NCBI GenBank assembly: GCA_021527695.1
Contig: JAKFAO010000003.1
Coordinates: forward strand, 1,798,001-1,862,000
DNA length: 64,000 nucleotides
Source of the DNA: Naematelia aurantialba
Taxonomy: Eukaryota; Basidiomycota; Tremellomycetes; Tremellales; Naemateliaceae
Reading direction: 5' to 3'
The notes under the pieces: model-generated
What the model saw: the letters and a program-made list of their open reading frames with translations, nothing else
Databases searched by the model: none
Told to the model about the DNA's origin: nothing
Shown here: positions 13,427-63,121 of the stretch, one piece after another
Layout of the letters: the number at the start of each line of letters is the position of its first letter
Position numbering within the stretch: position 1 is the first letter of the stretch
Position numbers and translations under genes: made by a program

Positions 13427-14476
13427 TCATCCTTCTGCAGACGTAATAGAGCCAACACTTGTCGAGTCTTCGAGCTCGGAGGGGTCGGGCCAAGTACATT
13501 TCCTCTTCCTCTGGCGACAGGAAAGGCACGAAGGCATTCCACCGGCCCGGGACTTTAGGGCTCTGGAGTGCTCATCCAAGTTTTTCGTCGACACCAAGCA
13601 TGAAGCACCGCTCTTTGAACACGAAGTGCAGATCATTGAAAGTTGCACGCCGTCTTTGCCAGCGTGTAAGACGAAGAGATTCGTGTATGCCGGCTGCATG
13701 AGGACCGTTTCTTTCTGACCTCGATACCCAGAGCTGATTACCACCTGGACAAGATAAGGATATGGGCTTGTTCTGGAAACAGACCGGTCAGTGGCGTCAG
13801 TATGAGCAGAGTCCGAGGCTGCCCCTGTGCCCCCACCCGACGTGGTCGCAGGACGTGAGGCTGTCACCTGAAGCGAGCTTGTTTTCCGACTCAGCCTCGT
13901 GTCGTAGTGCTTGCTTGGTAAGGGGGCACGACGTGCAGCAGAACCGCGCACGGCCCCCCCATCTCCAGAGCTGGCTGTTTCGTTTGCGATAGCGACGGGG
14001 GAAGCGGGAGAAAGTCGTGCAGAGAGAGCAGATAGTCCAGCGCTCTCTGTAAGGTCTGGCTGTTGTTTCTTCACAGCCAAAGGAAGGTAGCTACCCATCT
14101 CGTCTGTCTCGAGACCCGTATGTCCCTGCGGGAGAGTCTCAAGGCTCTGGTGACTCGTCGAGGACATTCCCACTTGTCGTTCTGGTTCAGGTGTCTTTGA
14201 GTACGAGTCGTGGGAGGACTCGACTTGGTCAGTTTCCCCACGGCCCTCACCATCGCTATTATGGCCTTGGGTTGGAAACATCCCAGTTGTGATAAAGACG
14301 GTGAGATCGTCAAAGTCAAGGTATGGATAGTCGTCGTTCGAATCGCCAAAGTGATTACTTGGGGAAGCACGATCTCCACCGTGCCCATAGTCGCATGAGC
14401 CGTCGGTTAGGGCTGAATTGTCGTCTCTCAATAACCTCTCGTCCTGACTGTTCAGAATCATTGGGTGTGAGTCCAT
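13427..14476 (-). CDS. Double-CxxC family protein A (unrecognised)
   Basis: Single open frame of 349 aa with an ATG start; no intron needed. Residues 1-~215 are low-complexity and Ser/Asp/Gly-rich, probably disordered. A more hydrophobic segment around residue 245 (PYPYLVQVVISSGY) precedes two Cys motifs: CTSCSKSGASC (283-293) and CLSCRQRKRKC (317-327), 23 residues apart, followed by TWPDPSELED and a short tail. The second motif looks like the first half of a canonical fungal Zn2Cys6 cluster (CxxCRxRKxKC); the first looks like its second half. I do not recognise the protein. Metal binding, probably zinc, is inferred from Cys spacing; DNA binding is possible but unproven. It heads a tandem array of four same-strand relatives (13.4-19.7 kb). 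Confidence 0.75.
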   Translation of the reverse strand: MDSHPMILNSQDERLLRDDNSALTDGSCDYGHGGDRASPSNHFGDSNDDYPYLDFDDLTVFITTGMFPTQGHNSDGEGRGETDQVESSHDSYSKTPEPERQVGMSSTSHQSLETLPQGHTGLETDEMGSYLPLAVKKQQPDLTESAGLSALSARLSPASPVAIANETASSGDGGAVRGSAARRAPLPSKHYDTRLSRKTSSLQVTASRPATTSGGGTGAASDSAHTDATDRSVSRTSPYPYLVQVVISSGYRGQKETVLMQPAYTNLFVLHAGKDGVQLSMICTSCSKSGASCLVSTKNLDEHSRALKSRAGGMPSCLSCRQRKRKCTWPDPSELEDSTSVGSITSAEG

Positions 14477-15099
14477 AGAGCCTGGTTTGCACGTCCGTGC
14501 GAAAGGTAGCTAGTATCAGAGGATAGGTGATGCGCAGCAGTATGTCCTTCGGAGCAGTCGACGAGAGTCTTTGCAGCCCACTCGCAGCGCTCGCTAGCCA
14601 GGCCTCGGTTTTGGAAGGTCCTGCTTCGGTATTAGATTGAAGAAGTCAAGCTTGTATAGGTGCAGACGTCCTTCCGAAAAGAGGCGCAGTGATGCCCCCA
14701 GTCTGGGTCACGCACGGATGGCCTTTTACTTGTGCGGAGGAAAGTTGCCGCCTTCTGATTCTGTTTGAAAGGAGGAATTCAGTCTACTGCAAGTCACTCG
14801 CCACTTCAAAACGATATCGTCCATAAAGGAAATTGAGCAATGTGCACCAGGAGGAGTGAAGCTGTCCATCCCTATAGCCTGAGGTAACCGTTCCATCTTG
14901 AGTGGTCGGCGTCCAGTACCCCTCCCCTCGTCTTGCATTCTCTAGGCCATGTTCACTTTGCGTTCGCCACCAGCAGGCAGGAATGAACTCTCGCAACCGT
15001 GACAGCACCGTTGTACTGAGAATATATGACCTCAACGTAGCATTGTAGTACGTCTATGTACAAAGGTCCGACTGCTCCGTGTGTATGAGCCTCTATTGA
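14477..15099. other. Spacer between family genes A and B
   Basis: No confident gene. A minus-strand open stretch at 14784-15035 (ending ...LNFLYGRYRFEVASDLQ) could be an extra 3' exon of gene B, because gene B's last coding codons contain a GTGAGT donor just before the stop at 15100. No acceptor that keeps the frame was convincing. Confidence 0.35.
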
Positions 15100-16344
15100 T
15101 TACTCACACGTCCCGTCATCGTAAACGAGCGTGGGCACTGAGCCACACCCTTTGACACTCAAGTCGTGTACTACCCTCCTTATATTTACACGCGGGCTCC
15201 CAGCGTTCGAGTCCCACGTAACCATGGAAGGCGGCTCCTGTTGAGCTGCATTGACACCCGGGTTGGACTCTGGCACAGATCCTTTTGGCCTGTGGCGGAA
15301 CTGAGTCTTAGAGGCCACTGTACGGGACGTCGGAAGCTCGTTGTGGCGATCCGGCCACACGCATCCGGGTCCGCCGATACGTGTGGCTCTCGGGCCAGAA
15401 CTACAATTGTCGCAACTGACTGGCTCTGCAAAGGTGGAGTCGCGGCGTGGCTTGCCTGTGTTAGGGTCGCATTGGCTCTTTGGGATGCGGCACGTGAGCC
15501 ATTCTTGCCAGCAAGACGTGCATTTCTTCTCCTCGGGGACCGTATGCCATTCCTCAGACGAGGGGTGCGCACTGGTTCCATCGAGCACAGCTTCTTTCTG
15601 ACCATCTGTTTGAGTTTTGCTGTGAGGCTGAGAGGTGACGCTGTCAAGTGAACTGTGTCTCCCTTGGACGCGCGGAGCATAGTGCTCCGATTCTATTTCA
15701 TGGGCTGCAGGGCGACCATAGGGATGGGTTTGAAGATGGGGCGAAGATCTGCCTTCTTGCTGGTGGTGAGTAGTAGGATGTCTTGAGAGACGGTGGTGCT
15801 GTTGAGGGAGTCTGGGGTTTCGAATACCCGTAGATGTTAAGGTTCCGGCTCCTTGAGGGGCCGTAGGAGTCGCAGACAGCTGCGATGTTATCGGCCCCTG
15901 CGAGAGGATCATTCGGGGCCCGCTTGCCTCTACAGCCGACGAAGTCAACGCAGCCGCGGCGGTAGACCCACGCATTGGTGAGCAGTCGATGTGATCGAGT
16001 TGCCCGAAGTTTTGGCCGGAAGTTTCCCCCTGTTCAGCAGTAAAACCACTCTGGGAAAACATCGTCTGCGGCGGAACATGATGCGAACTCGTTGGGTTCG
16101 TGAAGACCACGGCCGAGTTGAAGCGATAGTCGTAAGGGTAGCTGCTCCCTCCTTCAGAACTAATGCCAGAGTACCAGAATTCATTCCCTGCCATCTTACT
16201 CTGGTACACTGCAGAGGAGTCCAGTTGGACGCTGGCATCCCCGTAGGGGCCTTGTTGGTAAGTGTAGACAGCTTGCTGAAGGTGGAGGCTTTCCAGGAGG
16301 GGATTTTGGGATATCTCTTGTTGTTCAAGGTCCTGAGGCTGCAT
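15100..16344 (-). CDS. Double-CxxC family protein B (unrecognised)
   Basis: Open frame of 414 aa from an ATG. The first ~260 residues are Gln/Ser/Thr/Pro/His-rich and disordered. The Cys motifs are CTSCWQEWLTC (275-285) and CDNC followed by Cys 13 residues later (311-328, ending GGPGCVWPD), separated by 25 residues that include DPNTGK and EPVSC. These linker residues match members C and D (PTEGV..., TPV[S/K]C), which supports common ancestry. Unlike D, about 85 more residues follow motif 2. The stop overlaps a consensus donor (gtgagtaa), so a further exon cannot be excluded. Function unknown; nuclear zinc-binding is a guess from the motif type. Confidence 0.72.
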   Translation of the reverse strand: MQPQDLEQQEISQNPLLESLHLQQAVYTYQQGPYGDASVQLDSSAVYQSKMAGNEFWYSGISSEGGSSYPYDYRFNSAVVFTNPTSSHHVPPQTMFSQSGFTAEQGETSGQNFGQLDHIDCSPMRGSTAAAALTSSAVEASGPRMILSQGPITSQLSATPTAPQGAGTLTSTGIRNPRLPQQHHRLSRHPTTHHQQEGRSSPHLQTHPYGRPAAHEIESEHYAPRVQGRHSSLDSVTSQPHSKTQTDGQKEAVLDGTSAHPSSEEWHTVPEEKKCTSCWQEWLTCRIPKSQCDPNTGKPRRDSTFAEPVSCDNCSSGPRATRIGGPGCVWPDRHNELPTSRTVASKTQFRHRPKGSVPESNPGVNAAQQEPPSMVTWDSNAGSPRVNIRRVVHDLSVKGCGSVPTLVYDDGTCE

Positions 16345-16850
16345 AACGTCTGACTTGACGCTGCCTTACTACTTGCTCAGTTAGGACAGTAGAGTGGCGA
16401 AATGAAGACCTTGAATGCGAGCAAAACCTTTCAACTTTTCAGAGCCCCGTTGGTCCCCTCCTTTCAGTCGCTGGTCTGGACTTAGGATGTTCGTTGGTGT
16501 CTTCTGGTAGGACGCATCGAGTGCATCTGCACGCTGTTGCTCCCGGAAGCTGGGAGGCCTGCTGAGCGAGAGAGGCTGCGCACGTCAGAAGCAGAGGATG
16601 CCAAATGTGAGGTGACTGGCTGCAACAATCTCATGCGGAGTGTTCTTCGAGGCTTGTGGCAGGTTGGTGCGCTGGAAACTGAGACCTAGGCTTTTTCAAT
16701 GAAATAAAACACGTCTTAGTCTGTATGATGATAAGCTGAAGAACCACCGATCGACTCTATCAACGACGGGACTCTCTTGTTCTGTTATTTTTCAGAGCCA
16801 TGCGACATGATCCGACGAACTGTCCACAATACGAGCATCTCTCAAATGGA
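16345..16850. other. Spacer between family genes B and C
   Basis: 506 bp holding the presumed promoter of B and 3' flank of C. I see no gene, RNA or clear repeat. Confidence 0.4.
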
Positions 16851-17768
16851 CTATCCTGTATACAGACCACTCTCGAAGGGAAATTCTCGAGTCCTTCGGG
16901 AGCGTGCCGATTGACACTCCGCGGCTATGGATCGGCTTCGGTATTGCGTTTGTCGTTTCCTCAATCCAAACCGAGTCTTTACTTCGCTGCAAGCTGGAGC
17001 GGTGACGCTGTATTCACATTCACAGTGCAGGTCCCAACAAGTCATGCACTTTACCGGTGTCTCGGACCCCGTGACTCCCTCCTTCCCCGAGACGGGATAG
17101 CTGTCAAACACTGTCAAAGTGGCGACGTCGACCCCTTCTGTAGGTGCGAGGCAGATCCTGCCATTTCGGATGCATCCCTTGCATCGCTTGTCGTCGGAGA
17201 GCCGCGTGGTCTTTCTAGTGTGGTTGATCAGTGTGCGATGCGCGAGCTTTCCTTGATTTTGCACAGAGCCGCGTGCCGCCGTTGAGCAGTACTTTGACGC
17301 TTTGAATTCAAGTGAGGTACGATTCTTCGTCGGACACTCCGGTTCGAAATCAGCATCTCCATCTTGTGAGGGAGAGCGCTCGGGCCCTGGCCCCGTTGAG
17401 GTACTTGACACATTCGTCTCCGACGCTGAACTGTCCCGGTGCCACGCTGAAGGATGCAGGTAGGCCAGAGACTCGTCCGATGGGGCAGGAGACAGCCATG
17501 CCCTTGTGTACTCATCGGCCCCCTGAGGGTTCGCCATAGTAGTGGACAATTGCTGCTGAAGCTGGCGGATTCTGGGTGGCAATTTCACATACGGAAAGCG
17601 GGGGCTGTGATCTGGCTTGAGCCAAAATCGAACATCATCCGTCGCCGTTGTTGCGGGCAAATAGTCGCAGGTCGGGGCCAAAGAGAATGGCGGGCTGGAC
17701 ACCGCCTGCATGAAAGAGCTGTTGTGTGACATATCGGAATGATGCGGTTGGAAGATATTTCTCGGCAT
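16851..17768 (-). CDS. Double-CxxC family protein C (unrecognised)
   Basis: Single frame of 305 aa from an ATG. It has a disordered N-terminus with SPAPSDES and GPGPERSPS stretches. Motif 1 is CKGCIRNGRIC (196-206). The 34-residue linker starts LAPTEGV and ends ETPVK. Motif 2, CMTCWDLHCEC (241-251), has an additional Cys inside. The tail is basic (FGLRKRQTQYRSRS, then RSRRTR), which could serve as a nuclear localisation signal. The linker has exactly the same length (34) and the same ends as in member D, so C and D are close paralogs. No named family recognised. Confidence 0.72.
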   Translation of the reverse strand: MPRNIFQPHHSDMSHNSSFMQAVSSPPFSLAPTCDYLPATTATDDVRFWLKPDHSPRFPYVKLPPRIRQLQQQLSTTMANPQGADEYTRAWLSPAPSDESLAYLHPSAWHRDSSASETNVSSTSTGPGPERSPSQDGDADFEPECPTKNRTSLEFKASKYCSTAARGSVQNQGKLAHRTLINHTRKTTRLSDDKRCKGCIRNGRICLAPTEGVDVATLTVFDSYPVSGKEGVTGSETPVKCMTCWDLHCECEYSVTAPACSEVKTRFGLRKRQTQYRSRSIAAECQSARSRRTREFPFESGLYTG

Positions 17769-18163
17769 TGCTTCTGGCTTTATAGGACGCAGAACGATGG
17801 CCCATCTTTCTCTAGCTCCTTTGTACTGAGTACAATGCCATGATTCCTACCTGTGAGGCCTTCCTTCCTCTAGCTTGTTGGTGTCCTATTCACTGGCAGT
17901 AAATCCGATCCGCAAGATGCAAACCTCGGTGGACGGGGGGAAAGCGGATGCCCTCACTCTCTGTCTTTCTCGTATAGAACTGCATCAGTGTCCCATTGCC
18001 TTGTGAAGCGGCTCTTCAGGGTTGGTGCTCATCTCGAAGGCCTTCTACATTGAACAGTAGAAGTGTACACTTCCAACCCTTTCTTCCAAGCATAGCCAAA
18101 ACATGCAAATCGGCCAAATCTGTCTTCGGACAACTTTCCCCTTTCAGATGGGTGATCTGCCTC
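17769..18163. other. Spacer between family genes C and D
   Basis: 395 bp; nothing supportable beyond presumed promoter and 3' flank. Confidence 0.35.
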
Positions 18164-19690
18164 TTAGGCGTTCCAGAGTCCCGGTAGGCTGTCACGGAAC
18201 TGTGAGACCGTGAGGCGGAATCTGGCCTGGAACCGCTTGACATCCTCCGCTGTGACGAGGTACAGAGGCTCGTCCAGGTCTCTCTCGTCCCAGATGCAAC
18301 GTGTTCCCGATTCGTAACACGAATTGCAGCTCACTGGCGTCTTAGTCTGTACTAGCTTTCCGTTTTGCAGTCTGGTTCGATTGGCGTAAACCCTTCCAGT
18401 ATCGGGGTTCACACCCTCGGTAGGAACCGTGCAATCGTGTGTCCATCGGCACCTTGTGCACGTCCTTCCTCTGCCCAGCTGGGTCCACTGGACAGTCGCT
18501 CGTATGGTTAATCGCATGCGGCGATACTCGTACCTGACGAGCAATGCGTCCTGAAGTTCCGCCACGCTGGGGCAATCGGAGCTTGAGGGTCCGTTATACA
18601 CGCTGACCGTTGAGGCCGAAGTGTTCGGCCGCCTGCTACGCATAATCGCGTACAGGCTGTTGTGCTCCTGTGGCCGAGAAACTGCTGTGCTGTCGTCCCT
18701 ATTGCGAGTACCCGCCGTGGGCCCTCGGCGGGCAAGGGAGAGCACCTCCTCGACTTCATCCTCCGAGTCGATCTGGGGCTCAGAGTCCTCGTCCAAGCTT
18801 TTAAATCGATTGCCAACACCATGGTTATCTGTGGACCTCCCCCCGAGCTGTGCAGTCATGAAGTCCCGCCGGAAAGGCGCTTGCGAGGAGCCACCAGCAG
18901 GAGCTGTTGGCTGGATTTCTTCGCCGTCCTCGCTCGGCTCCCGCTTGCGCCAGTTCCTCTTCGCAGGGAAGGGTCCACTGATGCACTCCAGGTCGGAGTC
19001 GGATGAAGATGAGTCTGAAGACAGAATGATAATGGTGATACGACCGTCGGTGTGCTCGACCTTGAACTCATGTTTCACGGTTGGAGAAACTCGTGCTCCT
19101 GGAGACTCAGGTTCCCGCATGCCCAGATAAACGACCTCGGACGGCCGCGTACCCATATAAACGACCTCGGGCCGCCGCGTACCTACGTACACGACATCGC
19201 TGTCTTCCATGGCCGTATCATTACAAGCAGGCGTGCCAAGGCACTCGATTTCATCGTCGTCCTTAACATCCACATCTCCAAATGCCTGAATTGGATCTTC
19301 TCGTTTCGTCACTCCATGGGTCGTTGTAAGTCGTGAGGACAATTTAGTTCGTCGGGCCGGTACCGTGGGCCTTCGCGTGGATATCCATTGAACCTCATCG
19401 TCGAAATCGTTGGATGGCGGTCGTGATGCAGCCACTTGACATGCCAACTCGCTAGCAAATGCCGTGTTCTCACTGTTGGTGAGTGGACCTAGGCTTCTAG
19501 AATGCGGCGTGTTGTCCTCAACCTTGAGGATAGGTGCCGGTCCCAGGAAGGGAGCAGGTACAGCATACCTGTAGCTATGAGAAGATGGTCCTCCCAGGCC
19601 AAACTCCTCTGCGTCGCTTGAGTGGTGTTGGGGTTTGACTTGCGATACCTCTGGCAGAGCACGAAATCCTCGTCCTTCCGGCCGGGTCAT
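18164..19690 (-). CDS. Double-CxxC family protein D with multiple SUMO-interaction-like motifs
   Basis: Open frame of 508 aa from an ATG. Between residues ~95 and 240 it carries short acidic-hydrophobic motifs of one style: DDEVQWIS (98-104), DDEIECLG (145-152), DSDVVYVG, PEVVYMG and SEVVYLG (163-190, a tandem near-repeat), ITIIILSSDSSSSDSD (218-233) and DSDLECIS (231-238). The IIIL core followed by Ser/Asp is a textbook SIM pattern; the others resemble SIMs. An acidic segment (DEDSEPQIDSEDEVEE) follows. The C-terminus has CTRCRWTHDC (411-420) and CNSCYESGTRC (455-465) separated by 34 residues (PTEGVNPDTG ... TPVS), then a 43-residue end (LYLVTAEDVKRFQARFRL...). No RING domain is visible. Function unknown; a SUMO-linked nuclear role is inferred. 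Confidence 0.75.
   Translation of the reverse strand: MTRPEGRGFRALPEVSQVKPQHHSSDAEEFGLGGPSSHSYRYAVPAPFLGPAPILKVEDNTPHSRSLGPLTNSENTAFASELACQVAASRPPSNDFDDEVQWISTRRPTVPARRTKLSSRLTTTHGVTKREDPIQAFGDVDVKDDDEIECLGTPACNDTAMEDSDVVYVGTRRPEVVYMGTRPSEVVYLGMREPESPGARVSPTVKHEFKVEHTDGRITIIILSSDSSSSDSDLECISGPFPAKRNWRKREPSEDGEEIQPTAPAGGSSQAPFRRDFMTAQLGGRSTDNHGVGNRFKSLDEDSEPQIDSEDEVEEVLSLARRGPTAGTRNRDDSTAVSRPQEHNSLYAIMRSRRPNTSASTVSVYNGPSSSDCPSVAELQDALLVRYEYRRMRLTIRATVQWTQLGRGRTCTRCRWTHDCTVPTEGVNPDTGRVYANRTRLQNGKLVQTKTPVSCNSCYESGTRCIWDERDLDEPLYLVTAEDVKRFQARFRLTVSQFRDSLPGLWNA
19105..19215 (-). repeat. In-gene tandem repeat coding the VVY[VML]G motifs of protein D
   Basis: Three imperfect ~30-36-bp units encode DVVYVGTRRPE, EVVYMGTRPSE and EVVYLGMREPE. 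On the plus strand they share the core cgtaccyayrtaaacgacctcgg, shown here in degenerate form. The repeats stay in frame. Confidence 0.75.
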
Positions 19691-20940
19691 ATTAACGACA
19701 CTATTGGTGGCGTGTAGTGGGCGAGGAAGAGGAAGGACGGAGACACTCGCTACAAAAGCCCATCAGGATAGCTGTGCTTACCCCAGCCCCACTCTGGAAG
19801 AATTTGGGGAAGGCGCACGTAAATGACGGTAGAATTTCACGGGGCTGGACCGGGTGTCTGCCTCTCCTAGATACGACCTCGCCTTCGTTGAAGCTGAAAC
19901 GCAGAACTGCATGCCTAGACGGAGAGAAATTGAGTTCTGGGCCTTCGTGCCCCAGAGCGTGGAGCGAGAAACGTCACTAAACCTCCCAAGAAATGCCACA
20001 CCGAGTGGGCTTGAAAGGGTAGACGACTCAGATCCTCCACAGTCTGCTCCATTCAGCCGCGCAGCGACAGATACCGCCTGCACTGAGAGATATTGGGCAC
20101 TACAGTGAATGGGCCAGAGGCAGAATGGTGACCGAATAAAAGGTTTCCCTGCTAAACAGATGCTGTGTTTCCCGACAAGCTGACCTCACCCTCCCTTACT
20201 GTGAGCTGTAGACCTCTCGATGATGAGATGGACGACTGACTCCAACTCCTTTGCGACATGAGTGGAACCCTATGAGTCTTTCTGTTTCACTTGCCCAACT
20301 CAAGCTCCCCACCGAAATGAAAGGTCAATTTCCTCCGTGGAGCAGTCATTTTCCTGGGAGTCTCACGACACACCACACAAGCCACCAAGGCCGAGTAGAG
20401 TTGCAAATATCGAGGACGGAGGAAGGGATCTCCTTTGTCCACTCGAACATCCTTCTTGACTCGAACATCCTTCTTGACTCGAACATCCTTCATGACGTGT
20501 AAGGTCGGATGACCCCGTCGGCTGCAGAAACGCCCGGGCGTAGACTGCCATTCTAGGTCCCCAGCAGTACGCCCTGCTAGCCTGCTGTATGTCGAGTACT
20601 GAGGTTCATGGGCAAAAACGCGGGCAAATCGCCACTGCGTCGTGAACCTGCGCACGGACCTGCCTCGACGGCTTCGGCCTCTCTTACCGGTTGTGGGGTG
20701 CGGTTTTCACGGGAGCCCGGGTTTGCCCTGAAGCTAAATCCATGCCGAGTTGCGCATCTCTCATCCATCCTTGCATTGCACTGAACACCTGGACTCTCTA
20801 GAGAAGCTTGCATCTGGCCGGGCAGACGTGAAATCCCGGCTCCTGAAATCAGCGCTCGAAACCGAGCCTATCGTACCTTCGACGACGGAGAATTTTCGAG
20901 GAAAGAAACGTGCCCGGACTGAGAGTCGGCGTGCTCCATC
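19691..20940. other. Intergenic region between divergent protein D and membrane glycoprotein genes
   Basis: 1.25 kb. It contains a short 15-bp tandem repeat (core gaacatccttcttgactc, about 3.3 copies) at 20446-20495 and otherwise no feature I can support. It must hold the promoters of both flanking genes. Confidence 0.45.
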
Positions 20941-23168
20941 ATGAGGCCGTATGGCCTGTGGATGTCAATATGGGCCGTTGTGGTGGGTCTACTGGTTGCG
21001 GATCGGGTCCAAGCAGGCTACATCAGTCTGAACATGACGACGTGGGTCCTCTTTCTTGGTCAAAGGTCGTCGGGAAACTGACGACTTGTAGCCCGAGGCA
21101 ATGCGGTGTTGCCAAGATTCAGTAAGCCATTTTCCCAACTTTGGCTGGCAGGGACTGACTGCAGTTAGGTGGTGGGGCGACGACGGGCCATATCACGTCC
21201 TCCTCACACCAGTGAGCCTTTCATCTACAGTTGAATAATTGCTTATTGTCAGACCGAGTTTGTTGAACACGGCTATAATGTGAATCAGCTTGACACTCGA
21301 GCCCTCAGGTACAGACTGACATGTATTTTCGGCAGGTATGGATCCCATCCGTCGAGAATGGTACCACTTCCTACGATGTGACTTTGCGACAACCTGCTGG
21401 TATGCAATTTATTCTCACGGTGTGGGGTGCTAGTGGGATCCAGTTTGCCGGCACGACGGACGTCTTGAGTGAGTGGATCAGGTTCCCGTCAGTGCGAGTG
21501 CTGATTGCTTCGCCAGCCGTGGGACAGCCTGAAGCTGGTGCGACCTCGTGTTTCCTCACAGATGAGGAGATCCTCGACCAATATACTTTCTCCTTCAACA
21601 TCTCAGATACATCTAGCGGGTACCCAGCACAGTGTTCCAATCTTTCCTTGTCCTGGCCAACCTCCCTAGAGTCCAACGTCACTGGGACCGTCGACCGGCG
21701 AGACTTCACCGCGAACATCAGTGCATTGCTCGAGGAGGCCTGGGACGATGACCCTACTTTGGTCCAGCTAGATTCGAGTTCGAGTAAAGATGCCGGCAAC
21801 ACCACAAAACCGCCTACAATGTTCGGGGTCATCCCCCTCGGTAACAGCTTTGAGATCCCAATCACCTTCGCCCGGTCGTCCAAATTCGCAAAGTACCTGC
21901 CCGAATCTTCTTTGTCTGATACGCCGACGACGCACACCTCTGACGGCGTCGCCTATCTTGAATGGACGGTCGATCTCGCCAAAGGCACCCGCTTTATTCT
22001 GGTCGCGGGTATCGGTGCGGAAGAGCAGTGGGCAAGCGGCGGGTCGAGCATCATGTTGACTGTAGGTCAGGGCTCGACAGACTGTTCGGGGAACGAGGCG
22101 GGGTCTGGCGGTGTTCCAAGTGTAACTGCCACCGGAACAGCGTGCGTGCCTCGCCTTCCATTGTACTTTTCTTACAACCGCGTACTAACATTTCCTAGGA
22201 GTACCACTGCGGTGCCCACGGCCTCGGCAGATTCTGACGATTCAGGTCACGAAAACAGACTCAGTCTCATTGGCACCATCCTCGCCTGCGTGTTCTCGAT
22301 TCTCGCGACGCTACTGGTCGTCGGGATTTGCTTCTTCTGCCGGCGACGTATACGACGGCGACGAGCTGCTCAATCGCAGGCGGCGGGATCATTCGCCTCG
22401 CCTAACAAACACCGATCATCCGCATATGACGAAGACCGTCAAGGTACTCCCGAAACGCAGCTTGATCTCATTGCATCCCGCGACGCGGAAAGTACCGGAC
22501 GAGGACTTGCGCCTCTGATCACTCATGCGGCTAGGCAGCCAGAGTCGCCCAGCACGCTCACACCGACGCTATATGATCCGTTTGGCGATGCTTCGGCACG
22601 AACGCAAGGGTTCGCGGCGCCAACTCGGACAGCGACGTTCGACGATACCGCTAGCTCGCCGGTCTCGCCTGTCCATGAGCCAAGCTACTCGCGCGATGTC
22701 CCACAACGGCAATCATCTCAGGACTTGCTGCTCCCTCGCCTACCGCGGGTCGCTTCTCCGTTTGACGGCTCGTATCCGTCCTCACGGGGTCCCTTGCGTC
22801 TTCACGATGGCCCACTCCGAGCAAGAGGTGGAGACGACGGCGACAACGATGTGGACGTGGATGAGGATGGGGATGGCGACGGCGATGATGTGACTGAATT
22901 GAAACGGGACATCCTCACAATGGGAGACGGTACGACGTCGCGCTCCTCGACAAGTGGAACGTCTGTCTCAGCAGGGACGGGTCAGCGTACGCAACGACGG
23001 AGACAGGGTGCGCCGCGCGACGTAGAGTATGTGGTGCATTACGATGCGGGGCGGGTTGCGCAGCCATCGTCGTCGGCTAGGGTGGAGCGGGTCGAGTTGC
23101 CGCCGCGGTACGACGAGTTGAACTGGGCAGAAGGGGAGCAAGAGGAGCACGAACGAGCTACGCGTTGA
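20941..23168 (+). CDS. Single-pass membrane glycoprotein with secreted N-terminus (unrecognised)
   Basis: Exons 20941-21041, 21092-21121, 21169-21211, 21253-21279, 21336-21468, 21517-22141, 22199-23168; 642 aa. The first exon gives a clean signal peptide (MRPYGLWMSIWAVVVGLLVA, cleavage near VQAG). The ectodomain (about 26-340) has QWWGDDGPYHVLLTP, VWIPSVENGTTSYDVTL and several N-x-S/T sites, then a Ser/Thr stalk. One TM segment follows at about 342-366 (IGTILACVFSILATLLVVGI) with a basic stop-transfer (CRRRIRRRR). The ~270-residue cytosolic tail is disordered, with an Asp-rich run (NDVDVDEDGDGDGDD) and a PPRYDELNW motif. The layout matches a widespread basidiomycete cell-surface protein type of unknown function. 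Short exons (27-43 nt) were set by frame and the GG/W-type motifs. A wall sensor or adhesion role is only a guess. Confidence 0.85.
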
Positions 23169-23300
23169 CGATATACGCGTTGACGATATACGCATTGACG
23201 ATATGCGCGGTGACGGCATTCGCGGTGACGGCATGCGAACGGATACGCGGTGACGACAGGCGCGTTGACGACATTCGAGTCGGCGCGGTGCCCGTCGTTG
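23163..23300 (+). repeat. 15-bp tandem repeat starting at the stop codon of the membrane glycoprotein gene
   Basis: Units of the form acgcgttgacgatat (15 bp), with variants acgcattgacgatat and gcggtgacggcat. The first unit contains the gene's own TGA, so the next four or five units repeat an in-frame TGA every five codons. It decays into degenerate copies by about 23300. Confidence 0.85.
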
Positions 23301-23848: not shown

Positions 23849-24034
23849 TCGTCCATCATCATTGATCAATCGTCCATCATCAATGATCAATCGTCCATCA
23901 TCAATGATCAATCGTCCATCATCAATGATCAATCGTCCATCATCAATGATCAATCGTCCATCATCAATGATCAATCGTCCATCATCAATGATCAATCGCC
24001 CATCGTCCATCATCAATCATCAATCATCAATCAT
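23849..24034. repeat. 21-bp minisatellite at the 3' end of TAF7
   Basis: About seven near-identical 21-bp units (core cgtccatcatcaatgatca) between the convergent membrane glycoprotein and TAF7 genes. The array decays into caatcat trimer-like copies at 24005-24034, which overlap the TAF7 stop codon (24027-24029). Each unit keeps frame, giving spurious open frames on both strands. Confidence 0.92.
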
Positions 24035-52103: not shown

Positions 52104-54082
52104 GTTGTTGGGGTCCAGGCGCGGATTTGGGTCTGACGCGGGCCCCAACCGTCGTTCTATGATAGTGCACCACTCGTCGTCTCGGATCAACGATCACCCG
52201 AAAAAATAATCCAGAACCCAGAATGCAGAGAGAGCGCGACGCGGGCGAGAGAGGGGCCGAGTGCACCCGGGCAACGATGGTGCGTCAGCTGGGAGGCGCG
52301 GTTCGCGGTTGCGATAGTATGTGCTAGTAGCGCTGTCGGGTCGCCTTGGAGACCTCGGGACTCGGGTCAACTCGTCTTTGTGCAATCTTTGCGTGTCCTC
52401 GTGCTCGTGATTCCGGGCGGGACCACTGCAAAGGGAGCACGGGACTATGCCTTGTGACTTGTGATCAGGTGTGGTTTTTTGTTGTGATCTGTGGTGTGAT
52501 CAGTTTCCAGTGGCAGGTGGACAGTCGACAGGTCGCCCGATAAAGGAGGGTGGTGTGTGTGGGCACGAGATGGCTCGGTACCTCTTTTGCTGATTAAACC
52601 GGGACCCAAGGGGCGGAATGTGCAGGTTTGCGCACAGCAGCAGCGGCGCTCGGGTCGATCGTCTCCGCGGGAAGCGGCGGGGGGGGTCGCCGCAGATGAG
52701 CACGTCACAGAGTCTTTCCCCCTGTTCGCCCTGCGTTGATCGACAGCGTCGGGCCCTTCGCGCCGTTCCTGTTCGGTTGGGCAGCCTGGGCCTCGTAGCC
52801 AGCGCTGCTTCCGGTTACCGAGTACCGTTACGTATCGTGACCCGTCACCGTCACCGTAACCATCAACCGAGCGCTCCAACGGGGCCAAAGGCCAAAATGG
52901 GACCAGCGAGCGAGCGAGACGGTGCGAGGAGCGGACGAGTACAATAGGAGAAAAAAAAAAAGAGGGCAGCGGTCGAGCGCAGTCACGAGCAGCCGATAGG
53001 ATCTAAATTCCGTGGATCCTCACAGCACAGTTAGTTACGGGGCCTGTGATGCGATGCCACGCGATGGTGTGAGCGACGGGGGGCGGGGGACTGCAAAGCT
53101 ACTTTTCCGGTCGTCGATCTGTTCCAGGGACTGTCGAAATGGGCGCTGGCGTTTCGAGGCGAGAGCGAGTGGGCCAGGGACGGCCCCTACAAGGGTTGGC
53201 GCAGGAGCCAGCAGGCGGGGCAGCTGCGGTGATCTCCGCGGGAGATTGTCAAAGTTCAGACACAGTTTCCCCCTTTGATTTTCCCCTGCTAAACTGGACG
53301 CCAAGTGTCCCCCCCCTGGATCACGTTGTCTCGCTAGTCGTCTCAGTGGAGAGATGGGCGTTGGAGGATGGTTGTGAGGAAACGAGGAGAACGAAACAGC
53401 AGGACAGAAGCGGGGCGTGGGGAGGGGCAACAAAAGGGAGCTATGGAGCGCTCCAAAGCTGCAGGAACGGGGTGGACAGGGTGTGGGATGTCGCACTCGG
53501 TGATGTGCAAGCTTCTTTAATATAATAGGCTTATGACGAGGATCTGACAGACGCCAATGGATGAGATGCGGAATTATTTGGCTAATTGGCAACGCCGCTC
53601 GAGGGAGATACGTCCAGAGATTGCGAGATCTCCGAAGGGCTCGAAGGCGTCTGCCGTGCTCGCCCATGCGACCCTGAAGGCGCGAACCATCCCAACGACC
53701 GGGTGCGTCGCACGCCGACGTCGACGCAGGACGGGGCAGCTGTTGGGGCCTTGGGACCCGTGATCGTCAGCCCTCCCGCTTTCGAGGTACGAGCACCAGG
53801 AAAGGCGCACATCCGCTTGGAGCTTAACGTGACATGTCAACCTCTGTGCAGGCTGTGGGTGGTAGGTTGTGGGTTGCGGGTTTTGGGAAAACAGAGGCCG
53901 CTGATCGCTTCGTTGGCTGCGTTTTGCTTCTGGCTTCTGGCTTCTCCCGCTGCCCTTGTCCACAAAAGTCTCTGCAGCGCAGGCCGCGCACGTACGTGCG
54001 TCCAGGTGGCGCCGATCAGGATGGCCAGGTCCCGGGCGGGGCGGGGTGGGAACGGCAGCGCGGCCAAGAACCAGCGGCCAGT

Positions 54083-54084
<2 letters not shown>

Positions 54085-54130
<46 letters not shown>
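54085..54130. repeat. (GAGGAC)n microsatellite
   Basis: About seven copies of gaggac, giving a Glu-Asp run in one frame. The surrounding frame lacks any domain, so I treat it as non-coding. Confidence 0.8.
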
Positions 54131-54141
<11 letters not shown>

Positions 54142-55550
54142 CGAGAGGAGCCGAGGGCGGGCGTTTCGGGCTTCAGTTTGGGGATCAGGGCGCGGCGGCG
54201 ACGATCAGAATCACACGGGGGACAAGGTTTTTATCGACCACATAACCCAGTTTCCCGAACGACGGTCTAACCCCGCTCCGTCGCCTGCGATCTGCCGTCA
54301 ACCGTGGTCCCGAGGCATGCGACTCGGCACCCTGAGACACGCGTGCACGACGTCTGTGGTTTCGTCGCTGCGCGCGGTTTCCCGCAATCGCTTCGGCCCC
54401 GTTCCCCCTAGTACCCCCTGGTATCAGGGATCGATCTGCACTCCTCCCCGTCGATGGATGGACGGCCACGCTCGGCGCCACGATCCACACCCACACCCAG
54501 ACCTGGCCGACCGTCATCCGACACGCGCACACACGTATTATGGTAATATGGAAATATGGTAATATGAAAATATGGTAATACCGTTCACGTAATCACTTGG
54601 GCCACCGTGGGCGCATCACGTTGCCGCTGCCGGAACGCGACCGCGACATGCCCCCCGCAGATCGCAGATCACGCGCGCGTTTGGCTCCTCGCCTCGCCTT
54701 TGCTGGAACCGAATTCTCGACCGCCTCGCCTCGCCTCGCCTCGCACTTAGCACCCAAGAAGAGTCGACGCCACACGAGCAGGCTGGCGTGCGCGGCGCTG
54801 TCTGGGATCTCGATCTCGGGAGTAAACACAAACGTTCGGCATGGCGGTGTCTCAGCGTAACAGCGTTTGGGAGTTGGGCGTCGGCGTCGGCGTCGGTCCC
54901 CCTACAGCTCAGCTCCCCCATACCAGCTGCCGTTCTGTCAGTCGACCACTCCAGTCCGGGGTTTCAGCCTTCTTTCCCTGTGGCCCGTCACCCGCCTGGG
55001 CCCCGCCTGATCTACGAGACGGGACACGACTCCCTCCCCCTCCCGACGAGCACTCGGTTAGTCACTGCGCCCGTGCTGACGAGCGAAGCGACGAGATCCC
55101 ACTTGAGCCCAGCCACTGCTGACGAGCGACGAAACCGAAACGAGATCCCACTTGAACCCAGCCACTGCCCAAGCGCGTGATGCACCTCATACCATGATAC
55201 CCTGTCGCGACAGACACCGGACATGCTTCAGAGTGTCACGCGGGGCCTGTGCCGCGTCCCCTTGACCTGTCAGCCGATGAGGCATCTTTACTCCCGTTCA
55301 CAAAGTCTGTCTCGGCGCCCTCCCGTCCCCTCCCTCCCTCCCTCCGACTCTCCCTCCCTCCGACTCTCCCTCTCTCCCTCCCTCTCTCTCCCTCCCTCCG
55401 ACTCTCCAATCCTGGTCGGTGGCATCGTCCAGATCTCTGGGTCGGTCGTCCCCTCGATCGGGAATACCGCAACCGCTCTCACGTAGACACGCCTGAGACA
55501 CGCCGAATTGGCAAGAACACCTCGGTCACTGGAGCCGAACAGCATCGCTT

Positions 55551-55630
55551 GAAAATCACCAAAATCACCAAAATCACCAAAATCACAAAATCACCAAAAT
55601 CACCAAATCACCAAAATCACCAAAATCAGC
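55551..55630. repeat. (CACCAAAAT)n minisatellite
   Basis: About eight copies of the 9-bp unit caccaaaat with small deletions. Non-coding. Confidence 0.9.
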
Positions 55631-56491
55631 GATCCGTCCAGGTCAAACAGCACATGTGCATGTCGTAACGGCAACAAAGGCAACAGTAGTCACCACCCTC
55701 GCCGAGCCCTTCATCTCCGCCGTCCATCCCACGGATGAGCATTTTCCTTGACACAAAACATGTTATGTTCGTTCCCGTTGGCTACGCCTGAGAAGCTTGC
55801 AAATGCCGAATATCTGGTATACGAGTATCCCCCGGGAGATGTCCCGATCCCGATCCTCCCTACCACCGTCTGCTGTGACCAATGTTGCCCATCGGCGAAT
55901 CTAATTATACTCTCCAGCACGATTCAATCAAGATCTCATTCGGAGCCTGTCGATCCATGAATTTGTCACCTTGGATCGTCTGGCGGTCGAGCGTGACAGC
56001 ATTTGCTTTACAGCAACGGCACGACATATACCAAATTGTCCGACCTCAGGGTCAAGAGTAAGCTTCAGTCTAAGAATGGATCCGTTCGCCGATCACACAT
56101 CATGCTTGCATGTGGTCCAGGATAGCACAAGATATTGTTGATGCGCTCCATGCATGCAGAGTTGTGGCGCGTCATTTGCACAATATATTGTTCATCGTTG
56201 ACGCTGGCGCGTCATTCGACTGACATTCGCATTAATGCCAGGTCGGAGCGCACCTAATGTACCTAACATTACATCGCTGTTGGAGCAGGCCCTAGTCCCC
56301 ACGTGCCTGGAAGAGCAATTGTGGGAGTTCCGGGGGTTTGACCGGCTGCCACAACTGCCTGCGTGGTTGCGCATGTCTCTTCGCCAGCTGGAGCTGCCTT
56401 GTCCGACGTGGCGTCGCGGTAGGCACAAACGCGATACCTCCGCCTGTACTGACCTCCGAGGTATAGATCTCCGCCGTGGCATCCAATCGTG

Positions 56492-59400
56492 CTAACCTTC
56501 TACATGTTCGCCTGTCCGTTTTCGATGCTCCCGAGCATCCAGGAACGTCTGAGCGCCGAACAATGTCCTAGCAGCCGCGACCAGCTACACAGTGATGAAC
56601 ATGGCATCTCGATGACGTCCTTGCCACGTCCAGCAGCTGGTGGAGGACTTGGGCTGGGAACATTGGCATGCACAGGCGACGCTGACGATGCTGGATTGGG
56701 ACCAAGGAGGGGGAGGCACGCTCCGAGCCACTCACCTCGTCTAGTATATTGCAGAGCTCTCCAAGCGCCTCGTTCTCCGCCATGGCGTAAAAGATTGCTA
56801 GTTCCACTCCGCCGTGATCTTTGAGCACCGACGAGTTTTGATGTCGTAAATCCCGTATATGGTCGTCCACAGCTCGCATGAGCTCTTCGAGCGGTATCCG
56901 AGCTGAAGGCAGATATTGTGGGAGAGGCGAGTGCGAGTGGAACGCCTGTCCACACGTCCACAGCGTTACGAGGACAGCCGAAATCTGATTGAATAAGCAG
57001 GGAAATGGGTTCTGACCCACAAGTTCTCGACGGATCGGCAGCACGTCCAGAACGGTCGCTTTTCGCGGAACGCTGAATCGCAACGCTCTGATCTCGATCA
57101 ATGTCTCAATCAGCCGCTCGACACCATCCACCACCTCGGAGTACAGCCGAATGGGGCGAGGCAGCAGCGACAGCTCTCTCCGTTGGATAGCTATCAAGTT
57201 GCGCGAAATGGCGATGTTTCGCTACTTATGATCAACTCAACACAAGATAGAGTGGAGAGTAGCACGCACCCGCACGTCCGCCTCTATACCCGCGTACTGC
57301 TTGGCGTTGTCCTGGTAGACCAAGCTACTACGCAACAGGTCTCGGCTCATTCGCAAGTAATATTCAGTCGCCCGTTCCATGGTTACAGAAACGGCGCGGA
57401 AGTATCGGACTCTGGCATGATTAGGCCAGACCAAGGTGCCTATAAGCACAGCAGCGGCGATGCCGATAGCAATGTCCACAAAGCGGTGCCAGGCGATCGT
57501 CCAAGACGACTGGCCGTCGTCGAGGTTTAAGTAAGAAATAAACATGATTGGTGGAAGGGTTATGCCTCTGCTCGCATGAGCAGGTATCTCAGATGGTATT
57601 TCCACCTACCAGTACGACTCACGAGATGGTTCCAACAGCGGGAAAACTGGTAAATAAGATGACGTAGGATATCGGTACAGAGCAAGCGGTCGCAAGGGTC
57701 ACAAGTGCGTATGGATTACGGTGGGCAATGATTGTACACTTTGAAAGTCGATCAGTGAGGATCTAGGGTATTCAAGCAAGAAGATCGCTACTGACGAGAA
57801 AGCCTCCCAGTGCTCCCACAAAAGTGCCGATGATACGGTAAAATCCAATCTTCAGGGTCGCTCCTGTGTGGACCTCTAAGACATACATGAAGCTGATCAC
57901 GGCCCAAGCCCCACGATACGACGCGTATAGCGCGCGTCCTGAAGAGCCGGGTTGCAGAAGGGCCGGAACGGCGAGTAGCATTATACCGGCTGCTTGCTTG
58001 ACCGCGAATTTGATGTGTGGTGAGTGCTTGCCTTGGTGCAGCAGGCGGGACAACGTTACTCTCCCTGATCTGCGCGTCAGCCTACGGAAGCATGAGACCC
58101 GCCATGGTGCTGACAATATAGGGCGTCCGGATGGTCCCAGACATGACGCCAAGCATGCTCAATCCGTAGGGAAAGCGACGTCTTCTCAACTGGATGCCGG
58201 TGCCGCTGATGCATGACCGCCGTGGCAAAGTCCATGTTCTCGTACGTCCGCGGTTCGTCATCGAGGGTTCGATCGTCTTCTGCGCTTGTATCTGATTATG
58301 GTCAGTATGAGCAGAAGAACGACATTAGGTAGCATACCCTCACCAGATTCCTCCGCTCTGTAGGCAAAGCGAGACAGACCGGGTATGCCCTCGATAGGTG
58401 ATCGCCAGTCGAAGGACGGTAGGAACCACTGCAGACTGTCTGGCAGAGAGGCTGTTCGATCCTGTACGAGGTCCACGAGTGTGAGCACGTCTTTGCCGAG
58501 GTCTAGCAGCGAGATCATGTAGAATGCGAGTCGGAAGTGTTCACGGCCAGTGCGCCGATCACTCCCACTACGAGGAGTAGCAACTCCCTCGTCGAATGGG
58601 ACTCCCCTGCTAAGATTGTGCGAGTGTTCTCGATGATGATGCGAGAATGCGAACGGCCTGTGATGGATCCGCGATCCATCAGTTGCTGAGGGCAATATGT
58701 CAAGCATCCCCGCTAGGCATCGCTGTAGCTCGGCGAGTGCAGCTTGCAACCCAGACTGCGCACCAACAATCTGTGTGGTCGGAGAGCTCGGCGCATGGGA
58801 CCATATATAAATTTTGGCCAGGCCCCCGTCGGCCGCTTTCAAAGCCGCGATGATCGCTAGGACGAGGCAGTTGCATGACTCGGACAGGCCGTGGGGCTCG
58901 CTTGGCGATAGAGCACCGTCATGAGGTGCAAGAGGAGCCCCGTTCGACGCCGTTTTAGCTGGGAAGTCGATACCTTCCAGTTTGCTCTGCAGCGTGAGGG
59001 AGAATGACTGCGGTATGCTCTTGGCCCCTTCGTCTTGAGACCTGCTCCTCTGACGAGAGGTCTTCGGTGACCTAGGGGTTCCGGGCCGAGAGGCAGGAGT
59101 AGACCATGGATCGGAGGCCCTCTCAAGAGCTGCGCGGATCCGTTCACCTGGTGAATGGCTAGTTGGTCCGAGGAGCGGATTGCGGTGAATACGCTGTACT
59201 GCACGGATGATGGGGCCGAGCTGCGCTGGCGAAGCACGCGCCCGTACCAAGTCCCGGCCGATCGCCTTGTGGGTAGTGGCGAGCTGTGCGACGAGGTGCC
59301 GAAGTCGCTGAGAGAGCTTGTCCTGCAGAGGGGCGTTTGACGGTTCTGCCTTGTCCGGCACCTCGGGGTCGAATGATGCTATCGAGCCTGTCTGGCCTGT

Positions 59401-60229
59401 TTCTCCTGTTGCGTCGACCTGTAAGACGCCTTGGAGGGACAACGGAAGGACCTGGCAAGTCGTGTCACAGATACTGTGCAGCAGACCACCGAGGCGTGGA
59501 AGAGATGACTGGCGGGGCAGGAAGAGAACGGGAACGAGGGCAAACAGAGCTGCGAATATTGTCACGTAGAACTGGTCGAGAAAGTAGGACGCTTGCATCT
59601 GTTCAGATACGTCAGTTGGGATGGGGAATTGGTTCTGGAATTTGATGTACATGTACGATATCCTGTGTCGAAGTCCAGAGGAATATGGGAAAGAACAAGG
59701 CTATCCGCGACGCAACCGTCAAGCGAGGGGACCAGCTTCTTAGGAAACCGCCTGGCTAGTCAGCACACCGGCCTGTCCAGACCCAACACGTACAGGTGAA
59801 GCTCAGCAGGCCGAGCCCGAGTCCTATGACAGCCCTCGCCGCATCCGAGTCAGCCTCATAGCGTCTCCCGCATACCGCCGCGACCGCCAACGTAGCATTG
59901 GCCCAAGCGAGTCCCAAGATCGCGCCGCTCAAACTGAACACTGTTCCGCTCAGCCACAGAGGACAAGGACGTGGTAATACATACGCGTGAGTTCAAACTG
60001 TGTGGTGATGTTGTTGGAAGGAAAGAAGAAGAGTAGCAACGAAGTATAAGGAAGGAACGCATATCTGGACACTCCAGTCAGCTCATCCAAGGTATGGCTC
60101 AACACACTGTCCAGCTATGCTGCCCCAAGGGCGGACAGCGGTGAAGACGAAACACAAAAAGGAGGCGAGGATGGGCACGAGCAAGCGCTGGATCTTGGTC
60201 GTCCACGGGGGCGATGCGTTGATGTCCAT
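56492..60229 (-). CDS. Large multi-pass membrane protein of the Bre4/FUSC (aromatic-acid exporter-like) group
   Basis: Model (minus order): 60108-60229, 59985-60064, 59794-59940, 59657-59751, 58344-59598, 58148-58291, 57796-58064, 57623-57738, 57270-57567, 56736-57221, 56628-56653, 56492-56567; 1037 aa, as expected for the family (~1000). First membrane half: RLLVPILASFLCFVFTAVRP, PYTSLLLFFLPSNN, FSLSGAILGLAWANATLAV, CGFLRSWSPRLTVASRIALF, DQFYVTIFAALFALVPVLFL. A ~380-residue cytosolic part follows. The second half begins IKFAVKQAAGIMLLAVPALL, YRGAWAVISFMYVLEVHTGA, FYRIIGTFVGALGGFL, and PISYVILFTSFPAVGTISGI. A duplicated FUSC-like fold with a cytosolic domain is typical of Bre4. Transported compound unknown. 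The boundary 58064-58148 has two workable splice choices, and the last two exons (26 and 76 nt) are tentative. Confidence 0.85.
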
Positions 60230-60452
60230 CTACTATACACACATTTGCAGCTGACGATGGAGAGAGTACGAAACAGACAGAAAACATGTCACGGCCGGCG
60301 AATTCGATGGCGGGGACCCATGCAAAAACCCTCCGAGACTGAATGTCTCGCCCCTCAAGCAAGCGCTATGCACAACTCTCTAACTCTGCAAACCTCGTCT
60401 TAGACACAAGAAGCTAGACGGCACTACGCCTATTCTATGCAAGAGAGCATCA

Positions 60453-61441
60453 TCAAGTCCTCCTATGCAAGACAGCATCATCAGCCACAGAGCTGCTCGC
60501 CGTCCCTTTGGGTGCACAAGTCATCGGCGAGGTACGACTCTTGCCGCGTGCGTCCTTGCTCGTCACACACTTGACTCTGCTGGTTTGGCAGAACAGGCAG
60601 GCCAATCCCCGTTTCATGCGATGCCCATATGGGGTCCAAGAGGTGGGGCCGCCACTATCCATCGCTTTGTCCCAGAGCCGCTTTGACCGGAGACACGGAA
60701 TATCCTTGGACGTACAATTGATACAGGATTCTTCGCGGGAGGCGGGCGTACATTTCTCATCCTCTGCGACTCGGTCAGCTTCCCGAAGAAGACGAGCGAG
60801 TCGACCCTCGACACAGGGCGGAGACACGTACGGAGGGGTGTGGGGACCTTCAATGCACAATGTGCTTCCACAGCTTTCCTCAGTGCTTCGACTAGCAAGG
60901 TGCAGTCGGTGTCATGGGACCCGTAGCGAGAACCCAAGGTTTCCGCCAATGTCATTGCTCGTTGCAGGCTCGTGAATACTCTCAAATGGGCCGCCCTTCT
61001 CGTGCTCTTTGGGTGTGCTGTAGCCTCTTCAATGCTCATTATTCTAGGCCCGTCTACGGTCGCTATGTCTCCGGCGGACGTGGCTGTACGATACGGGGAT
61101 GCGTCCTGACTGGAAGCAGTCCCGTTCTGCGACTCAACCAGTCCTCGGTCTGGAAGCAACCCAAAGGAAGTGGCCAAAGTGAACTCAACAGGAAACGGAT
61201 TGGCCATCGGAGACGTCCAAGCGGAGGCTTCAGCTGTTTCTGCGAGGACTGAATGCCGTGGCATCAGTAGGCTGCCGACAGGGTCCTGCGAAGGCGCCGG
61301 CAAGTAGGACAGGTCGCCTGCCCTTCCAAAGCTGAAAATGTCCGCACTTTCTGGCAAGTATTCTCGATCTGTGGAGCCACTGGTCAGCTATTCTGCCCAA
61401 ATAACTGAATTGAAACGCTCACAATCTCCTAGTCCGCTCAT
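60453..61441 (-). CDS. Double-CxxC family protein E (unrecognised)
   Basis: Exons (minus order) 61423-61441, 60848-61368, 60807-... modelled as 60453-60806; 297 aa. The first exon is only 19 nt (MSGLGD plus one base) and splices to YREYLPESADIFSFG. The second intron is 41 bp (60807-60847) and is required by a frame change inside an otherwise open stretch. A helical region (ATAHPKSTRRAAHLRVFTSL to EALRKAVEAHCALK) precedes CINCTSKDIPC (208-218) and CLFCQTSRVKC (250-260), 31 residues apart. Overall plan and motif pair match members A-D and F. The last codons (DDAVLHRRT, stop) are duplicated just after the stop. Function unknown. Confidence 0.7.
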
Positions 61442-61942
61442 TGTGGTCTTGCAATACTCGTATATGAGGGATACCGCAGGTGGCGAAGTGGCGTTTATGG
61501 AAGTCGAATGCGAGATAGTATCTGCATGAAGCCTCTTGGGATTAGAAGCCGGTAGATAGGCTACGGGTCTAAATGGAGCGTTGTCGCCGCGGAGGGCGTG
61601 CGCTCGTCTTCGTGAGCCCACTCTCGTTTCAAGCAGCCCAGTCCTTGACTTCCATTGATGGCTGACTGCACTAGTGTACAGTATTACCCAGCGTGACAAG
61701 AAATGCACGCAAGAGTTGGCTTCGAACGACAATCTGCACAAAGGCCATGCATGTAAGCCCTAGGGGATGCCTCCCCAGCCCCAGTCGCTGCCCCAGTCCC
61801 TGAACTCGGTATCCCATTCCTTCTCCTTTCACGTTCTCTCTTTCTCTCGAGGAATGCATCTCTGATTCCCCTCTCCCTTGTTCTAGTATACCTCTTGTCA
61901 CCTCACAATCCCAGCGTCGTCCTGAGGCCTCTAGTCCCACAG
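61442..61942. other. Spacer between family genes E and F
   Basis: 501 bp with the presumed promoter of E and the 3' flank of F; C/T-rich around 61760-61890. No gene supported. Confidence 0.35.
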
Positions 61943-63121
61943 TCACCGACCTGACCCAGAGCCACTCGACTCGGACGCAAAGAACTTCTCGGTGACATCA
62001 CAGGCTGTGTCATACCGGGTGCACATGTTGCATTTCTGTACTTGGACGGGTTTCTTGCGTTGCAGCGTAAAGCCTGTATGGCCTCTCTCTGCGGCGGCTG
62101 CGTACTGCTTGAGAGCCGCTAGATAAAGTGGTTCAAGTCGGCAAGACTCGGGATATCCCATGGAAATGCATTCTGTACAGGGAGACTTTGCCCGGACGTA
62201 ACTGCTGGGTCCGTCTATCCAGTCGTCGTGAACGGTCTCCGGGACGGTTTGGGTACGTTGTGTTTGGCTGGTGATGACAAACCTGCCTCCGAGGTCCTGC
62301 CCAGGGGTGTCATGGGGAGTGCTCCGTGGCTTTGGTTGACGAGTTTGGGAAGGTGCATCCCTTGCTGGTGGGGCTGGTGGGGGCAATCGTTTTCTAGTGC
62401 CTCGTTCCCGCAGCGCGATTGTCTGAGGTGGCCAGCTTGGCCGAAGTGCATGAGTCGGCATGGAAGAGGAGGCGCCCTCTGTAGGCTCTGGCTGCGGGGC
62501 CTCGGCCTGTGGTTGGCCAGGGTAATGAGTACCATAACCACCGGGCTCCCTTGCTCTACTTCCTGTGAGCGTCGTAGACATCGGTCTGGGAGACGGGGCT
62601 GCAGACATTCCAGTACTCGGCCAATATGACATTGTGTTCTGTGGAGGCCGCCAGTGTGACCGAGGGTTCGACGAGGAGGGACCTCGTGTAGAAAATTCTG
62701 CGTCTTGCGAAGATTCGGCTTGTTGTTGAGGTTGTTGAGCTGCATATGTCTCATATGCCATATCATAGCCCATGCGAGGCCCCATGGATCCCTGAACTTG
62801 TAAATTCGTAGGGAAAGCAGTGTCCAGCGAGGGTTGGGCTTGCTGTCGGGCTGCATATGTCCCGTAAGGATCATCGTAACCCGTGGGAGGCTCCATGGAT
62901 CCATGAATTTGGGAACTAGTAGGGAAAGCAGCGTGACTTGACGGTTGGGCCTCTTGTGACGCTGCATATGCCCAGTTCGAGTCATTGTAATACGTGAGAG
63001 GGGTTGTGGTAGCATAACCTTCGGGATTCGAGGGCAACGCAGGGTTCTGGGAGGATTGGTCTCCCGACTCGTCAGGGTCCGGCCAGTAGTAACCATAAGA
63101 ATCAGTAGGGTTCGTAGCCAT
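61943..63121 (-). CDS. Double-CxxC family protein F with internal repeats (unrecognised)
   Basis: 392 aa from the ATG at 63121 (MATNPTDSYGYYWPDPDESG); the frame is open to about 63316, but that part contains the TATA box, so it is not used. The N-terminal half has three imperfect ~36-residue repeats built on [GN]xYDxxYGTYAARQQAQPS, SSHAAFPTSSQIHGSMEPP and DTAFPTNLQVQGSMGP. A Pro/Ser/Arg-rich middle follows, then CTECISMGYPESC (315-327; 8 residues between second and third Cys) and CNMCTRYDTAC (364-374), 36 residues apart, with KKPVQVQKC resembling the PV[S/K]C linker ends of B-D. Tail FASESSGSGSGR. Function unknown. Confidence 0.72.
   Translation of the reverse strand: MATNPTDSYGYYWPDPDESGDQSSQNPALPSNPEGYATTTPLTYYNDSNWAYAASQEAQPSSHAAFPTSSQIHGSMEPPTGYDDPYGTYAARQQAQPSLDTAFPTNLQVQGSMGPRMGYDMAYETYAAQQPQQQAESSQDAEFSTRGPSSSNPRSHWRPPQNTMSYWPSTGMSAAPSPRPMSTTLTGSRAREPGGYGTHYPGQPQAEAPQPEPTEGASSSMPTHALRPSWPPQTIALRERGTRKRLPPPAPPARDAPSQTRQPKPRSTPHDTPGQDLGGRFVITSQTQRTQTVPETVHDDWIDGPSSYVRAKSPCTECISMGYPESCRLEPLYLAALKQYAAAAERGHTGFTLQRKKPVQVQKCNMCTRYDTACDVTEKFFASESSGSGSGR

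Follow-up and report, generated by a model that had tools for sequence, protein, structure and literature searches.

The stretch of DNA analysed here (the window) comprises 64,000 nucleotides of the tremellomycete fungus Naematelia aurantialba, positions 1,798,001 to 1,862,000 of contig JAKFAO010000003.1 (C9:1798001-1862000) in a 21.0 Mb assembly of 15 contigs. It contains six minus-strand genes, A to F, whose products carry two cysteine triplets near the C terminus and are probably a diverged variant of the fungal Zn2Cys6 cluster, working like proteins of that kind. The genes form two same-strand groups, A to D in a row at 13.4-19.7 kb and E and F at 60.4-63.1 kb. Gene A (13427..14476; 349 amino acids, aa) has triplets CTSCSKSGASC (13598-13630) and CLSCRQRKRKC (13496-13528) separated by a linker of 23 residues. 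In gene B (15100..16344; 414 aa) the triplet CTSCWQEWLTC (15490-15522) is followed after 25 residues by C-x2-C-x13-C (15361-15414). Genes C (16851..17768; 305 aa; CKGCIRNGRIC at 17151-17183, CMTCWDLHCEC at 17016-17048) and D (18164..19690; 508 aa; CTRCRWTHDC at 18431-18460, CNSCYESGTRC at 18296-18328) both have linkers of 34 residues. Gene E (60453..61441; 288 aa) carries CINCTSKDIPC (60693-60725) and CLFCQTSRVKC (60567-60599) with a linker of 31, and gene F (61943..63121; 392 aa) carries CTECISMGYPESC (62141-62179) and CNMCTRYDTAC (62000-62032) with a linker of 36. When 264 kb of contig C9 were scanned, 13 rows were obtained: A to F, six Cys-rich frames discarded by eye, and a further minus-strand member, G (C9:1862358-1862510; linker 27), which lies beside F, 358 bases beyond the window end.

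The frames lie where the initial annotation had placed them, and the linker range of 23-36 residues that it gave, with C and D equal at 34, agrees with ours; its description of six genes with C-terminal paired triplets needs amending for the long second triplet of B and for E, which reads as three exons. The splice model of E (exons 61441-61423, 61368-60832 and 60763-60453) was chosen from the sequence, and its putative introns of 54 and 68 bases both have GT, CTGAC and AG. Codon usage failed to discriminate the coding frame. Triplet spacing comes near the C-x2-C-x6(6-8)-C of Zn2Cys6 in A, C, E, F and G, with x6 and, in the first triplet of F, x8; the first triplet of D has x5 and the second of B x13. 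B and C have extra Cys in or near the domain, that of C lying inside its second triplet. The start of the domain lies 0.64-0.81 of the way along the protein in A to F, in the C-terminal third. The N-terminal parts, all described earlier as disordered, fall by composition on the disordered side of the charge-hydropathy line in five of six proteins (A to D and F), E being the exception. The N-terminal half of D also contains five short acidic-hydrophobic repeats (for example DSDVVYVGT, EVVYMGT and EVVYLGM) and a hydrophobic-then-acidic/serine stretch, which together we take to resemble SUMO-interaction motifs. That of F contains a tandem repeat enriched in Tyr, Gln and Ser (62739-62974; period 111 bases or 37 residues, 2.1 copies, 74% matches).

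We looked for the strict pattern C-x2-C-x5-8-C / 20-40 / C-x2-C-x5-8-C in window frames of at least 150 aa, taking both strands and including frames that overlap. It occurred in 5 of 120 frames, whereas 300 residue shuffles yielded 0.027 on average and never more than 1; gene B misses the pattern because of its second triplet. The linkers of all seven members exceed the 5-12 residues of Zn2Cys6. Because those linkers are 69-108 bases long, we checked them for hidden in-frame introns. No combination of a GTRNG donor with a CTNAY branch was present in any of the seven; the linker of D alone holds two GTGTGA donors, without a branch. Hidden introns were thus rejected as the cause of the long linkers in all seven cases.

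The Zn2Cys6 consensus has 5-12 residues between triplets and is usually N-terminal. Proteins of the class are defined further by a binuclear fold of two helices that holds two zinc ions and binds DNA in a sequence-specific manner. The genes resemble this class (PF00172, Gal4 type) in their two CxxC-x-C triplets, in the surrounding residues, in a weak fold match of the A model and in a regulator-like architecture with a low-order part. They differ from it in the linkers of A to F, which have 23-36 residues, in their C-terminal place, in a first triplet that is not basic and in that a basic motif, where there is one, is borne by the second triplet. We compared the triplets with half-models. Of the 15 canonical clusters behind these models, 10 belong to this genome and 5 were taken from PDB alignments. 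In leave-out tests 29 of the 30 halves were assigned correctly; the misplaced one belongs to L036, a long-linker cluster described below. With composition-matched random triplets as the reference, first triplets in A-G were second-half-like (p 0.0001) and the second triplets scored as both halves (p 0.0006 and 0.0001). The sign of a half score alone is no evidence, because a lean to the second half is already seen in 62% of random triplets.

G passes the Pfam Zn_clus profile (PF00172) at 21.2 bits against a cut-off of 21, by 0.2 bits and on half of the profile, its first triplet aligning to positions 17-34, the second half; the second triplet of A matches positions 2-14 below the cut-off. When triplets of A-G and of a four-triplet gene on contig C13 (L038) were scanned as separate pieces, 3 of 17 matched Zn_clus, each in the swapped sense: the first of G on 16-37, the second of A on 2-14 and the last of L038 on 2-18. 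A profile of A-F retrieved nine chains from PDB sequences at E up to 10, all weakly, eight of them Zn2Cys6 regulators to whose first part the second triplet of the profile aligned. Leu3 alone has its second half on the first triplet of the profile; the second halves of AlcR and Hap1 lie on the second triplet. The initial annotation had called for structure prediction, and for the domain of A the model (predicted local distance difference test score, pLDDT, 64, low) retrieved mainly Zn2Cys6 structures with Foldseek, each match being weak. Kinship of the A-G domains to Zn2Cys6 halves is supported by these sequence comparisons, and the earlier alternative of a family separate from Zn2Cys6 was not supported.

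Several results weigh against this kinship. None of the six window genes reached the Zn_clus gathering cut-off, and a genome search with PF00172, which scored only the best candidates and found 51 places at a threshold of E 0.001 and 97 at one of E 10, listed none of them in the window or at G. Below the cut-off, the first-triplet piece of A also matched ACT_9 and the second of G matched Copper-fist, and the A-F profile had its best PDB sequence hit in a C2H2 protein, BCL6 (E 0.16). No first-half signal was seen in the first triplets of the seven members (p 0.64), none of which keeps the canonical basic first half. No Foldseek match of the A model was significant, the Zn2Cys6 rows having E 1.8-6.0, and its structural re-alignment drew on Foldseek's own list. 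The domain of D was modelled as strands (pLDDT 57) with no PDB match. The genes were not filed as Zn2Cys6 members, because two or more of the defining features fail. They might instead encode a zinc-binding domain with no kinship to Zn2Cys6, in which CxxC arose independently; its sites could, for instance, each hold a single zinc with His, Asp or an extra Cys as the further ligand, and it could serve protein or RNA contacts. The lack of an above-cut-off Pfam hit in the six genes, a D model unlike Zn2Cys6 and the extra Cys of B and C would all fit such an origin. It is countered by the fit of the non-Cys residues to Zn2Cys6 halves, by G scoring above the Zn_clus cut-off and by three triplet pieces that match that profile, and we consider it unlikely.

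Linker length and C-terminal place had been put forward as contrasts with Zn2Cys6; they do not exclude that family, as both have exceptions. In an excerpt of PMC4025492, the Zn2Cys6 protein CgZCF36 has 77 residues between Cys3 and Cys4, and a title cited in PMC2447501 gives Ume6 of yeast a C-terminal zinc cluster; the likeness to A-G, in the long linker and in the C-terminal cluster respectively, is one of description, not sequence. We also retrieved five places in the N. aurantialba genome that match little beyond the first half (L036-L040). L036 and L037 (contigs C14 and C13) are Zn2Cys6 clusters in canonical order; their linkers, 35 and 36 residues long, show no intron-like signal, so that long linkers as such are ordinary in this genome. 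They share the long linker with A-G but retain the canonical basic first half; AlcR of Aspergillus likewise differs in its canonical order and basic first half. The Pfam profile likely splits L036 and L037, leaving a first-half match only, and L039 and L040 have a first half and no second half within the piece fetched. L038 falls within a frame of 439 residues that carries four triplets, of which the last is basic; this gene is unlinked to A-G. Long linkers and C-terminal placement have already been reported for Zn2Cys6, and the odd feature of A-G is the order of the halves.

Gal4 reads CGG via lysines between its second and third Cys, according to excerpts of PMC4245848 and PMC4025492. The basic motif R-x2-K-x-K between Cys2 and Cys3 was present in none of the seven first triplets, whereas the second triplet has it exactly in A and partially in E and G. 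Over A-G, assigning both triplets to the second half scored -38.4, the swapped order -65.2, the canonical order -115.0 and both to the first half -141.9; the canonical order too was better than random (p 0.004). The swapped order was favoured for G, E, A and F and for the second and last triplets of L038, and the canonical order slightly for B, C and D. A sign-flip test of half order was not significant under three settings, with P 0.28-0.31 for A-F, 0.14-0.16 for A-G and 0.07-0.09 with L038. These results suggest that the halves may be swapped in the A-G domains. It is possible, if doubtful, that they represent a naturally permuted Zn2Cys6 cluster, with the second half first, then a long linker, and the basic DNA-reading half last, an order that A, E, G and the C13 four-triplet gene would display, whereas B, C, D and F would have lost the basic half. 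Such a cluster may persist with its DNA-reading helix moved C-terminal, because the halves are pseudo-symmetric around the shared zinc pair. Literature searches for permuted or reversed Zn2Cys6, and others for long linkers or expansions in basidiomycetes, found no swapped cluster described in the titles listed or the abstracts shown.

That the assignment of both triplets to the second half ranks best lowers the odds of a permuted cluster. It is what one would expect of a Zn2Cys6 descendant that had lost its DNA-reading half and kept zinc, with both triplets second-half-like and serving dimer or protein contacts; B, C and D, which have no basic triplet and fit the canonical order slightly better than the swapped one, would suit this history as well. 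However, the second triplets of A, E and G keep basic residues and are first-half-like at p 0.0001-0.007, that of A being the exact Gal4 contact motif, so that we regard loss of the DNA-reading half across the group as improbable.

We assessed relatedness with Cys-anchored alignments and 2000 Cys-preserving shuffles over 28 pairs, in which the C13 gene was represented by its two middle triplets. Shared linker residues had been claimed for B, C and D, and the linkers of B-D and C-D were similar beyond all 2000 shuffles. Across the whole domain, A-B (p 0.0005) and C-G (p 0.0015) were alike among the 28 pairs tested; E and F showed no pairwise similarity surviving the 28 tests. The pattern CxxCWxLHxxC has two genome places, C and G only, and its reversed control has one. 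At the level of sequence, then, A to D and G hang together with graded strength, and E and F are tied to them by architecture, place and strand only. Searches of the genome with the proteins of B, C, D, E, F, G and the C13 gene returned self only, plus one weak stray place for D. Such searches are uninformative on family size, because they fail to find A-G from one another.

In a protein database search that requires shared exact words, with A and D as the queries among the seven members, the 7993 candidates scored for full-length D included no hit at E 0.01, and residues 270-349 of A gave five candidates, none at E 0.1. A canonical zinc-cluster gene used as control (L004) gave 44 hits among 62 candidates, 71-91% identical in the domain, two of which are assigned to Vanrija albida and a Cryptococcus species, so related fungi are present in the database. 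Unnamed basidiomycete proteins may have similar CxxCx6C pairs; if so, the architecture is wider than this genome. The initial annotation's picture of a diverged, locally expanded set holds in part, for the two same-strand groups, the B-C-D core and the failure to find database relatives for D and the C-terminal region of A; E and F have no significant sequence link to it. Decayed or chance frames that happen to carry Cys triplets, which the few significantly alike pairs (none with E or F), the indifferent codon usage and the unsettled gene model of G might suggest, are very improbable as an explanation, given five frames against 0.027 expected, the B-D and C-D linkers, the GT-CTGAC-AG introns of E and the two same-strand groups.

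The paired triplets, the duplication of part of the set and the residue-level resemblance to Zn2Cys6 halves are observed. On balance, we favour, with some reserve, the view that A-G are regulators that descend from the fungal Zn2Cys6 cluster, are restricted to their lineage and were in part duplicated in tandem. They are most likely fast-changing gene regulators, not a wholly new kind of protein; zinc binding, a binuclear cluster, DNA binding and regulation are predicted. Each member would combine a mostly low-order N-terminal part with a C-terminal six-cysteine domain. A zinc site cannot be completed by the three Cys of a single triplet, so cooperation between the two is expected. They would most likely meet, in the simplest arrangement with the linker of 23-36 residues looping out, and hold two zinc ions as in Gal4. 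The basic second triplet of A, and partly those of E and G, would read DNA, and the N-terminal part would act as the effector part that recruits partners.

Zinc clusters are a main class of fungal regulators, and counting them relies on a single profile with a single order. If a stretched or swapped version fell below its cut-off, local families that evolve fast would be missing from inventories. An excerpt of PMC5415576 puts the zinc-cluster share of the signature at about 20% in basidiomycetes and about 40% in Pezizomycotina. Confirmation of the swapped order would give the domain a new topology, and a real swap would be a natural experiment on how far cluster topology matters to DNA reading.

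Two minor observations concern other zinc-cluster places in the genome. In the C13 four-triplet frame (L041, L038 and L042; C13:914200-917200), the triplets occupy the last third and form two pairs with short linkers, and its first triplets have a G-Y/F-x-x-C look in common with F. Two Zn_clus places, C5:50714-50839 and C6:49502-49627, have equal score, profile range and frame length, as from a duplicated segment.
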